From Deltaproteobacteria bacterium (lineage in GTDB: Bacteria > Desulfobacterota > GWC2-55-46 > UBA9637): a stretch of DNA of 60,223 nucleotides. The notes below the pieces were generated by a model. The model made no database searches. It was not told the DNA's origin and saw nothing but the letters and a program-made list of their open reading frames with translations. The stretch's first letter is position 1; each line of letters starts with the position of its first letter. This document shows positions 4,054 to 23,469 of the stretch, one piece after another. A program made the translations under genes and the position numbers. The stretch lies in contig JACRNJ010000011.1 in NCBI GenBank assembly GCA_016219285.1, positions 1-60,223 on the forward strand. The letters run 5' to 3'.

Positions 4054-5817
4054 CTACCTCCCCTTCATCTTATAAACCATAATATAGCTCTTCCCTATTC
4101 CGCCATCCGTAACAACTGCAATTACCAGTTCCTTGCTGCCGTCGCTATCTATATCCTTTACAATATAATCCGCTATATAACCATCAATCTTTTTTGTCCT
4201 CCAGCTTTCTTCAAGGCTGCTTCCTTGCCATGTCAGATTTATAATTTCGCTCTTATCATAAGACCTGGCTCTTTTAAAGTAACGGCCAATGGCGCCAGGA
4301 TCATTCCTGCTGATTATTATTTCTCCAAATCCATTGCCATAGAGGTCAGTATAAACAATCCTGGCCTTTATATCTACAAAGTCGCTTCCCTCATTACTGC
4401 CTGATGATGTTCCAAGCTCAAGACGGTTCAGGCTGCCGCCGTAAAATTCTCCGCTCTTCCATATCTCTTGCCACAAGCCTTGTTTATCTTTATTGTATAT
4501 GCGCAGATAATCTTTTTCATCCATGGCAATAATATCTGCTGTCCCATTTCTATTCAAATCCACTATTTCAAAGTTGTATAAATTTAAACCTTTTGGTATA
4601 TCAACAGCCTTAACCGCCTGCAGTTTCCCATCTTTCCATTCAAGCCTTTGCACAGCGCCAAAGAATCCGGTTGTCTCGTCATATTTCTGCCCTATAAGCA
4701 TAGGAGCAGCTTTTTCTCCTACGGTCTTTATAAACCACTTAAAACCAGATGCTATAGTTTGGAATTCTCCATCCTTATATTCCATTGCATAAGAATCCAA
4801 TCTGTCATTTGTAATCCTTGAAATGTAAATTTCAGGAACGCCATTGTTGTTCATATCTGCAATTGATACGCTGTAATTTTTATGAGCGACATTTCCCTTA
4901 AATTCTTTAACAATTTCCAGCGCCTGCCCATTGAGCCGATAGATAAAAAGGTTGTGGCTGTCAAGCACAATCACTTCATTTTTTTTGTCGCCATCCACAT
5001 CTGCAATCTCAATATATTTTATAACCGTAGAAAATTGAGGGCTTTTCCAGATATGTTTTGTGTTAGATTTTTCCTTGATTATAAAATCGTCGTTTGCCAT
5101 AGTTTCTGCAGGCTTTTCCTTGGATATAAATTTACCTGTGTATTCAGAAGATGCAGGAGGAGCAGCTGGCGCTGTAGTTGTCTTTTCCGCATTCAAGATT
5201 TTAGCTTTTGTATGTTTAGCCATTTCATCAATCATTGATACAAGGTTATCCAGCCCTTTGCTTTGAGAAACAAAAAAGATAGGCGATACAACCTTTTTTA
5301 AGACTGCGGTCTTGGCGTCAATGCTTACACTGTCTGCAATAAGCGTAATACTTCCATAAATCACATAGTCAGCATTAACCTCATTGCCTATATTTTTGGC
5401 TATATCTTCTGTCATCTCCTCCTGACCGTATTTGGACAAGGCTGATTTAATGAAAGATTCCTTTACAATCTCTATGGTTGGTTCAGCGCCAATCCTGGAT
5501 GCAAACATATCATAAACACCGCCTTTGAGATATCCGAATTTTTCTTCAGCATTTATTTTCCATGGGACGATGGCTACCTTGACACTTTCGGCTGCAATAC
5601 TCTCTTTGCCATTTGCAAGGAATAGTGTCAAGGCAAGAGTGAGCAGTAAAATCTTTGAATGGGAGAATAGGTGAATCGGTGAATCGGTGAAAAATAAGAA
5701 ATGAACCGGTGAAGCTATACTTTTTCTCCCTTTCCCGTTTCCTTCCTTCTCCGATTCTATCCTTTTTCCCAGTTTCTCCGTTTCTCCGTTTCTCCGTTTC
5801 GTTATCTTTCTCATCAC
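4054..5817 (-). CDS. Exported VCBS/FG-GAP repeat protein with TolB/FlgO-like N-domain
   Basis: Signal peptide at about residues 55-77 ('KILLLTLALTLFLANG'), then an alpha/beta domain starting 'VKVAIVPWKIN' with 'NADYVIYGSI', similar to FlgO/TolB-type lipoprotein domains, then a C-terminal beta propeller with acidic FG-GAP/VCBS turns ('IADVDGDKKNEVIVLD', 'IADMNNNGVPEIYIS', 'DIDSDGSKELVI'). It is probably periplasmic or surface exposed; its ligand is unknown. The first 54 residues are odd: they come from a dispersed repeat (GAAACGG words and TTCACCGATT words, about 5655-5815) also found in xerC. Its Shine-Dalgarno (GAGGAGAT) lies in a duplicated copy of the argS 3' end. Confidence 0.8.
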   Translation of the reverse strand: MMRKITKRRNGETEKLGKRIESEKEGNGKGRKSIASPVHFLFFTDSPIHLFSHSKILLLTLALTLFLANGKESIAAESVKVAIVPWKINAEEKFGYLKGGVYDMFASRIGAEPTIEIVKESFIKSALSKYGQEEMTEDIAKNIGNEVNADYVIYGSITLIADSVSIDAKTAVLKKVVSPIFFVSQSKGLDNLVSMIDEMAKHTKAKILNAEKTTTAPAAPPASSEYTGKFISKEKPAETMANDDFIIKEKSNTKHIWKSPQFSTVIKYIEIADVDGDKKNEVIVLDSHNLFIYRLNGQALEIVKEFKGNVAHKNYSVSIADMNNNGVPEIYISRITNDRLDSYAMEYKDGEFQTIASGFKWFIKTVGEKAAPMLIGQKYDETTGFFGAVQRLEWKDGKLQAVKAVDIPKGLNLYNFEIVDLNRNGTADIIAMDEKDYLRIYNKDKQGLWQEIWKSGEFYGGSLNRLELGTSSGSNEGSDFVDIKARIVYTDLYGNGFGEIIISRNDPGAIGRYFKRARSYDKSEIINLTWQGSSLEESWRTKKIDGYIADYIVKDIDSDGSKELVIAVVTDGGIGKSYIMVYKMKGR

Positions 5818-5922
5818 ATCTCCTCAGGCGCTGAAACACAAGTAGTCTGCCGATTTATCGGCGTTTTAAGTTCGTCCATCAATGGGCAATTATACGGCTT
5901 ACATCTCTTCAGGCGCTGAAAC
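5816..5922. repeat. Palindromic element (GCCGATTTATCGGC family) between 22-bp direct repeats
   Basis: A 63-bp palindromic insert (5838-5900) lies between two copies of ACATCTCYTCAGGCGCTGAA plus AC (5816-5837 and 5901-5922, one mismatch). The right copy is the end of argS; the left copy carries the ribosome binding site of the VCBS gene. This looks like a target-site duplication that preserved both functions. Relatives of the insert are at 17464, 21526, 23345, 28349 and 47996. Confidence 0.75.
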
Positions 5923-7569
5923 GGCTAAAAGTTTGAGGCCATTCTGCATAACTGTTTGGACAGCTTCGCACAGATACAGCCTTGCATTAGTTAGTTCGCT
6001 GTTTTCTGTTACAACCCTGTTTTTATTGTAGTAGGGGTGAAACATGGCCGCCAGTTCATGCAGGTAGAATGTTATCCTGTGCGGCTCCATAGCTATGGCG
6101 CTCCCCTTAACAATATCCGGAAAAGAGGCAAGTTTTTTTATAATATCCAATTCTTGCTTAAGACTCAAGAGTTTAATATTTATATCCTCTGTCTTTGGGA
6201 TGTTAACCCCTTTTTCTCTGGCATGTTTTATTATGCTGCATATCCTTGCGTGTCCATACTGCACATAAAAAACCGGGTTTTCGGGCGCCTGCCTTTTTGC
6301 AAGCTCCAGGTCAAAATCAAGATGCGCGTCAGATTTTCTTGATAGGAAGAAAAATCTGCAGCCGTCTGTGCCAACTTCATCTATAACCTGTCTTAAGGTG
6401 ACAAACTCACCTTCTCTTTTTCCCATTGGCACGGGCACGCCGTTTCTTGAAAGGGATACGAGTTGAATGAATATGATTTTAAGTATGCTGTCATCGTAAC
6501 CAAAGGCCTTTAAAGCTGCCCTCACCCGTGCTTCATAACCATGATGATCAGCGCCCCAGATATTGATTATTGTTGAAAAGCCGCTTTCTACCTTATTTTT
6601 GTGATAGGCTATATCCGATGTAAAATATGTTAATTCTCCATCGGCTTTACTTAAAACCCGGTCTTTATCGTCCCCAAATTGTGTGGTTCTGAACCACAGA
6701 GCTCCATCATGGTCAAAAATAACCGCCTTTTTTTTGAGTTCATTAATTGCTGTCATTACCAGCCCGCTGTCACGCAATTCTTTGTTCTCGCTGTACCACC
6801 TGTCGAATTCTATGCCAAAATCCTTGAGGTCGTTTTTTATCTGTTCCAGCATCGCCTCGCAGGCAAATTCTTGAAATGTCTCAGTTGATACAGCTTGCGT
6901 GGGGTTGCCGTATTTTTCCCGATAGTTCCGCGCAATCTCCTTTACATAGTCGCCTTTATAGAAATCTTCAGGGAATGGCTCATTCTTGCCGCCGAATTCT
7001 TCATTATAACGTCGCCGGACAGATTCTCCGAGTATATACACCTGTCTGCCGGCGTCATTAACATAATACTCTTTCACAACATCGTATCCGACCGCCTTTA
7101 GAATATTTGCAAGAGAGTCGCCTACAGCAGCCCCTCTTCCATGGCCAATATGCAGAGGTCCTGTTGGATTTGCGCTTACAAATTCCACCTGAACTTTTTT
7201 CCCAGCGCCGATATTGTTTGTTCCGTATCTTTGTTTAAGGGAGTGGACTTCTTTGAGAAGGTTGAGCCAGTAATCATCATGCATAAAGATATTGATAAAT
7301 CCAGGCCCTGCTACTTCTACCTTCTTTACATTTTCAGATAGCCTAATCTCTGCCGCTATCAACTCGGCAATCTGTCTTGGCGGTTTGCCCTCTCTGCCAG
7401 CCAAAAGCATGCCTACATTTGTTGCAAAATCGCCAAATTCATCCTTTTTTGGTTTTTCTATAATGACATCAGGAAGCTCGCCTGCCTTTATAGCCATATT
7501 TTGTTGACAATTTTTGATGGCCTTTTTTATAATATCTGTTACTGTTTCTGTCATTTCTTGTGTCTCCAT
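5899..7569 (-). CDS. argS: Arginyl-tRNA synthetase
   Basis: Class I synthetase charging tRNA-Arg in the cytoplasm. Visible: N-terminal additional domain (about 1-110), the HIGH box at 140-143 inside 'NPTGPLHIGHGRG', the SxNG-type substitute for KMSKS expected in the Rossmann half, and a C-terminal DALR anticodon domain with 'NPVFYVQYGHARICSI'. At 556 residues it is of normal length. The gene ends 'SAPEEM', and this end is duplicated downstream across a palindromic insert. Confidence 0.95.
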   Translation of the reverse strand: METQEMTETVTDIIKKAIKNCQQNMAIKAGELPDVIIEKPKKDEFGDFATNVGMLLAGREGKPPRQIAELIAAEIRLSENVKKVEVAGPGFINIFMHDDYWLNLLKEVHSLKQRYGTNNIGAGKKVQVEFVSANPTGPLHIGHGRGAAVGDSLANILKAVGYDVVKEYYVNDAGRQVYILGESVRRRYNEEFGGKNEPFPEDFYKGDYVKEIARNYREKYGNPTQAVSTETFQEFACEAMLEQIKNDLKDFGIEFDRWYSENKELRDSGLVMTAINELKKKAVIFDHDGALWFRTTQFGDDKDRVLSKADGELTYFTSDIAYHKNKVESGFSTIINIWGADHHGYEARVRAALKAFGYDDSILKIIFIQLVSLSRNGVPVPMGKREGEFVTLRQVIDEVGTDGCRFFFLSRKSDAHLDFDLELAKRQAPENPVFYVQYGHARICSIIKHAREKGVNIPKTEDINIKLLSLKQELDIIKKLASFPDIVKGSAIAMEPHRITFYLHELAAMFHPYYNKNRVVTENSELTNARLYLCEAVQTVMQNGLKLLAVSAPEEM

Positions 7570-21230: not shown

Positions 21231-21521
21231 ATGAAGATTAAACCACTTCACGACAGGATTTTAGTGAAGAGACTGGAAGAAGAGGAAAAGACAAAGGGAG
21301 GCATTATAATCCCTGACAGCGCAAAGGAAAAACCCATGGAAGGCGAGGTTGTCGCTGTTGGTCCAGGTAAAATGGCCGATGACGGTAAGAGGATTGCTAT
21401 GGATGTTAAAGCTGGCGACAGGGTGCTATACAGCAAGTATGGCGGTACCGAGGTAAAGATTGAAGGTGAGGAACACCTGATTATGAGAGAAGAGGATGTT
21501 CTTGGAATAATAGCAAAGTGA
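21231..21521 (+). CDS. groS: Co-chaperonin GroES
   Basis: Heptameric lid of the GroEL chamber. Visible: '[28 protein letters not shown]' with the mobile loop (residues 16-32), 'AVGPGK', '[18 protein letters not shown]' and C-terminal '[13 protein letters not shown]'. 96 residues. First gene of the CIRCE-controlled groES-groEL operon. Confidence 0.98.
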
Positions 21522-21525
21522 TTGT

Positions 21526-21580
21526 CTGTAGTTGCCGATTCATCGGCTCTTTTAATACATCCATAAATGGGCAAACTACA
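21526..21580. repeat. Palindromic element (GCCGATTTATCGGC family) between groES and groEL
   Basis: TAGTTGCCGATTCATCGGC...CCATAAATGGGCAAACTA; sits within the operon just before the groEL Shine-Dalgarno (AAAGGAGG). Confidence 0.75.
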
Positions 21581-21586
21581 AAATAA

Positions 21587-23257
<1,671 letters not shown>

Positions 23258-23344: not shown

Positions 23345-23469
23345 CCATAGGCAGCGACATAAATTTGTAGTCTGCCGATTTATCGGCGATTTTAAAATAC
23401 GCCCATGGGGCGCCCAACAGAAGGTTAGGTCGGGCAAACTACAGCTACTTATTTTTGTCGTCCACTATA
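23345..23469. repeat. Palindromic element (GCCGATTTATCGGC family), long form with inner insert
   Basis: Shares outer arms and core with 17464-17567 (CATAGGCAGCGACATAAATT...TTATTTTTGTCGTCCACTATA) but has about 24 extra bases (GGGGCGCCCAACAGAAGG...) in the centre of the right half. Confidence 0.8.

Follow-up and report, generated by a model that had tools for sequence, protein, structure and literature searches.

The argS junction of this deltaproteobacterial contig raises the question of how a palindromic insert came to lie between two neighboring genes within a long direct repeat, and whether that repeat was made by the insertion itself. In the window (the whole stretch of DNA that was analyzed, 60,223 bp), argS is followed on the minus strand by a gene for an FG-GAP/VCBS-type repeat protein. 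The two are separated by a palindromic stretch of 63 bp, flanked by two copies of a 22-bp direct repeat (ACATCTCYTCAGGCGCTGAAAC) which are 21/22 identical and offset by 85 bp. This is the sole pair with at least 21/22 identity at offsets of 22-149 in the 60-kb window, and none of 100 shuffled controls gave even one match to it. The features of the junction are as follows.

5899..7569, minus strand: argS (arginyl-tRNA synthetase, 556 aa; open reading frame with Pfam DALR_1, tRNA-synt_1d and Arg_tRNA_synt_N)
4054..5814, minus strand: FG-GAP/VCBS-type repeat protein gene, ATG at 5814 (open reading frame and Pfam search)
5820..5825, minus strand: Shine-Dalgarno sequence GAGGAG of the FG-GAP gene, within copy 2 of the repeat, 5 nt before the ATG (GAGGAG in all relatives)
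5901..5922, no strand: 22-bp repeat, argS-side copy, ACATCTCTTCAGGCGCTGAAAC (direct-repeat comparison)
5816..5837, no strand: 22-bp repeat, copy beside the FG-GAP gene, ACATCTCCTCAGGCGCTGAAAC (direct-repeat comparison)

The empty site and the sister species

A sequence-only reading of the locus had proposed that the ancestral argS end overlapped the next start, and this was borne out by the comparison with relatives. A single copy of the repeat, without insert, is present at the argS junction of five of them (G001, G003, G005, G006 and G007). In four of these five argS ends with GAGGAGATG followed by TGATG (GAG GAG ATG TGATG in G001, G005 and G006) or TAATG (GAG GAG ATG TAATG in G007), so that its stop codon overlaps the next ATG and the downstream gene uses a GAGGAG within argS as its ribosome site. 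The junction of G003 also has one copy, with TGAATG and, downstream of the stop, some low-complexity sequence. These empty sites support the view that the palindrome, which is real and lies between two near-identical copies, is a mobile insertion at a junction of overlapping genes. In no relative were both copies seen where the palindrome was absent, and a bare 27-bp duplication (see below) without insert was seen in none of the six same-family relatives inspected (G001, G003-G007), the assemblies of G000 (the genome that contains the window) and its relatives being drafts, some of them incomplete.

The present argS product ends ...LAVSAPEEM, followed by TAA. Within copy 1 (the argS side) GAGGAG has changed to GAAGAG, a synonymous substitution, while copy 2 retains GAGGAG; this contrast, which is a single substitution, is expected if only copy 2 still serves as a ribosome site. 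Copy 1 would now be coding only, with copy 2 supplying the Shine-Dalgarno sequence for the FG-GAP gene, in agreement with the roles first assigned to the two copies. The N-terminal part of the FG-GAP gene (window 5587-5811) consists of short tandem repeats, AAACGGAG and GAATCGGTGAA; at the same place G004 and others carry different short repeats (GTTTACA, AGTCAGA), and the remainder of the gene is approx. 91% identical between G000 and G004.

The argS genes of the sister species G004 and of G000 differ by 2.3% at the DNA level and by 7% at fourfold sites. The argS junction of G004 contains no REPIN-like palindrome of the kind described below; instead, an unrelated 107-bp repeat lies between two copies of AGGAGATGTGAT, a duplication of 12 bp that covers the ribosome site.

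The palindrome and its family

The insert has the anatomy of a REPIN, and its parts are located as follows.

5842..5895, no strand: REPIN-like inverted GTAG doublet (GTAT...CTAC on the minus strand; family alignment)
5849..5862, no strand: REP hairpin 1, GCCGATTTATCGGC, with GTAG (5842-5845, plus strand) in front of it
5874..5887, no strand: REP hairpin 2, GTCCATCAATGGGC, imperfect and degenerate (family consensus GCCCATTTATGGGC)

The aligned family copies form an inverted doublet, GTAGTTTGCCCATTTATGGGCG...CGCCGATAAATCGGCAGACTAC, in which two inverted REP hairpins are enclosed by GTAG tags; the end that reads GTAT at the argS junction is GTAG in the family. The core of the insert has 40 scored matching places in the same genome, and the REP-hairpin pattern, with at most one mismatch, was found 115 times in forward and 114 times in reverse orientation in G000 (reversed control, 0). 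Exact REP-hairpin places listed in G000 number 90, which puts the family at approx. 90-115 hairpins in a draft genome of 2.28 Mb. Judged by its sequence, the insert is a member of a common, putatively mobile family of GTAG-tagged inverted REP doublets; the mobility of REPINs in this lineage is suggested by the dispersed copies together with the presence or absence of individual ones. Y1 transposases are present in G000 and its relatives, and REPs of like design (GTAG, palindrome, TTTA or TTCA loop) border the RAYT genes at L036, L278, L282 and L286. The exact REP (TGCCGATNNATCGGC) occurred within approx. 1.5 kb of none of the 38 Y1_Tnp loci of G000-G007, G009 and G010, and we therefore use the label REPIN-like. 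An exact search of viral contigs for the REP pattern was negative.

Strong RNA structure was considered as the reason for the insert and was rejected, since the junction folds no better than its shuffles (z 0.02); as single-stranded DNA, the insert folds weakly better than shuffles (z -1.29). Many family copies sit within larger inverted-repeat elements starting with CTATAG. One such element, of approx. 119 bp, with CTATAG ends and the REP doublet inside, occupies positions 23348-23466 of the window and is absent from G004. REPINs may thus also travel inside a DDE-type MITE. On contig C3 of G000 (L031, L034, L035), an IS605-like element encoding TnpA and TnpB is accompanied by two truncated copies of the start of this TnpA.

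Origin of the direct repeat

The repeat had been read as a duplication generated by the insertion, and flanks of this kind would then be expected at other members of the family. For 81 family copies we compared the best direct repeat between the flanks with that of randomly paired flanks, and in 79 of them the flanking repeats stayed within the range of random pairing. The two outliers were the argS junction (22 bp) and L138 (18 bp); the latter was discarded as a target duplication, its motif recurring at L117, L326, L009 and L016 as a dispersed repeat. Most copies thus lack the target duplication of constant length that marks a DDE-type MITE. The sites that could be compared with relatives agree: (i) the insertion at 23.35 kb of the window, absent from the sister species, duplicated at most a few bases, (ii) the L029 junction (G000:C51:1688-1728), with a REPIN in G000 and a compact form in G001, G002 and G007, shows no long duplication, and (iii) neither does the groES/groEL junction, with a REPIN in G000 and other sequences in seven relatives. 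For the IS200/IS605-type Y1 transposases, to which RAYTs are related, no larger target duplications are known (PMC2817692). The idea that the family as a whole makes long target duplications was rejected on the strength of the 81 flank pairs and the compared sites; together with the chemistry of the IS200/IS605 enzymes, these results indicate that the repeat is peculiar to the argS locus.

The repeat also extends into the presumed insert. On the minus strand the order is TTAGCC GTTTCAGCGCCTGAAGAGATG / TAAGCC, the REPIN GTATAATTGCC...GACTACTTGT, then GTTTCAGCGCCTGAGGAGATG TGATG. The TAAGCC, counted until now as part of the 63-bp stretch, lies outside the REPIN, which starts at its own GTA(G) end, and matches the TTAGCC preceding the argS-side copy at five of six positions, exactly beside the repeat; approx. 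0.5% of the hexamers in the window match as well, a figure that ignores other ways of looking. Since the two hexamers pair in this way, the true length of the repeat is probably 27 bp rather than 22 bp. Once the 58-bp REPIN is excised in silico, two adjacent tandem units of 27 bp remain, 25/27 identical and comprising nine codons in frame (LAVSAPEEM/*AVSAPEEM).

5902..5928, minus strand: copy 1 of the proposed 27-bp tandem duplication, TTA GCC GTT TCA GCG CCT GAA GAG ATG (LAVSAPEEM)
5896..5901, minus strand: first 6 bp of copy 2, TAAGCC, in which TTA->TAA forms the current argS stop (5899-5901)
5838..5841, minus strand: TTGT, four bases separating the REPIN from the remainder of copy 2
5817..5837, minus strand: other 21 bp of copy 2 (GTTTCAGCGCCTGAGGAGATG), now the non-coding leader of the FG-GAP gene

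The history that we favor, with moderate confidence, has two steps: first a tandem duplication of 27 bp at the argS end, then the entry of a REPIN into the second copy. The ancestor, in the state shown by the relatives, would have had an argS ending GAG GAG ATG TGATG, whose last codons doubled as ribosome site for the FG-GAP gene. In the G000 lineage an in-frame tandem duplication of nine codons, probably by replication slippage, would have left both genes functional, with ArgS nine residues longer and the second copy carrying the Shine-Dalgarno sequence and the TGATG overlap. Neither gene would be harmed by an in-frame duplication of 27 bp, and the second copy, being redundant, would be a safe site for a REPIN, which may have entered after TAAGCC without a long target duplication. 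A change of TTA to TAA, before or after this entry, would have restored the argS end; the REPIN itself also contributes an in-frame TAA. The other insertion mechanism that the sequence-only reading had thought possible is thereby recast as a history in two steps. Against the two steps stand the absence of the bare 27-bp duplication from the relatives inspected, the brevity of the extra match (six bases beyond the 22 bp), the TTGT beside the REPIN, which they do not account for, and the duplication at the argS junction of the sister species as well, which a special mechanism would also fit.

The first alternative is a single repair or replication accident that made duplication and palindrome together: a polymerase would have switched from the argS end to a REPIN hairpin at another place, copied it and resumed 22-27 bp upstream, or a staggered break would have captured a REPIN hairpin. 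We consider this unlikely, while granting that the four filler bases adjoining the REPIN favor it and that a duplication length differing between sister species (22-27 versus 12 bp) suits variable repair better than a transposase. However, no donor copy of more than 88% identity was found, nor any match in which a shared flank continues beyond the REPIN boundary, and the TAAGCC match places the palindrome within the duplicated unit, which a single jump does not need.

Insertions at other operon junctions

In G004 the 107-bp repeat recurs as a family of at least seven near-full copies, which directly precede a gene's Shine-Dalgarno sequence, most with GGAG-like sequence on both sides. Its members (L300, L302, L304, L306, L308, L310, L312 and L301) start like a Shine-Dalgarno sequence, an ATG and a short open frame, MKDYTDYKGGLHRLRQNSSF, and end just before the AGGAG of the next gene.

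The groES/groEL junction (window 21494-21604; L155, L320-L323, L329, L330) contains different palindromes or short repeats in nearly every species that was compared. Besides the REPIN of G000 and a palindrome of G004, AATCTGTGTAATC, further palindromic or short-repeat inserts were seen in G001, G003, G005, G006, G008 and G009; all of these lie after the groES stop and before the Shine-Dalgarno sequence of groEL. The inserts of G003 (L329) and G009 (L330), two genomes of different families, are near-identical within differing groES surroundings, which may reflect transfer or assembly or binning contamination. At the L029 junction (L247-L252), different palindromes or short repeats are present in G000, G004, G005 and G006, and none in G001, G002 and G007. 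Both junctions were chosen for the REPIN of G000, so the evidence for a pattern comes from the relatives and G000 is not counted. The findings point to a broader pattern in which operon junctions of this lineage carry palindromes that differ between species, with the ribosome site always intact. A literature search for palindromes associated with overlapping genes returned nothing relevant.

Unrelated mobile palindromes might enter between stop and Shine-Dalgarno sequence in such a way that the ribosome site is copied and the operon genes survive. The different palindromes filling this space at three junctions point in this direction, as do the GGAG-like edges of most full 107-bp copies before a start codon and, at L301, a left ribosome site that is native in the orthologous region of G004. 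We nevertheless regard this as improbable: within the 107-bp family the agreement between left and right sites is mainly in AGGAG, which would be shared by any pair of Shine-Dalgarno sites, the REPINs at L029 and groES/groEL left the ribosome site unduplicated, and selection against insertions elsewhere could yield an equal distribution. Two independent insertions at the argS junction, with different duplications that each preserve the end of argS and the ribosome site downstream, suggest survivorship, since an insertion without duplication would break one of the two overlapping genes; selection for keeping both intact probably explains the duplications at surviving insertions.

Least probable, and to us very doubtful, is the original proposal of a true 22-bp target-site duplication by a palindrome-moving transposase, which gains from near-perfect repeats exactly flanking the insert and from the single-copy empty sites, but not from the other family members, the compared sites or RAYT-type chemistry (PMC2817692).

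With REPINs (Bertels and Rainey 2011, PMC3116915) the family shares inverted short hairpins, GTAG...CTAC ends and dispersed, intergenic copies; it differs in that none of the 38 loci examined had a RAYT gene with this exact REP at its flank, and in that the argS-junction copy, with one GTAG degraded to GTAT, lies in a duplicated gene end. With the superfamily of GTAG-tagged REPs (Di Nocera et al. 2013, PMC3733652) it shares the GTAG followed by a palindrome, whereas the host here is an uncultivated deltaproteobacterial lineage; the text of that paper, as far as it was searched, gave no match for 'delta' or duplicated flanks. The TTTA or TTCA loop of the argS-junction family is also found in the RAYT-linked REPs of these genomes. 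Like tandem duplications produced by replication slippage, the argS end shows a direct repeat of 27 bp, 25/27 identical and a multiple of three in length; unlike a plain slippage duplication, it is split by a mobile palindrome and hence resembles a target-site duplication. The locus illustrates how repeats enclosing a mobile element may pass for a target-site duplication though they stem from an older duplication of a gene end, which in this case would have made the insertion of the REPIN tolerable.
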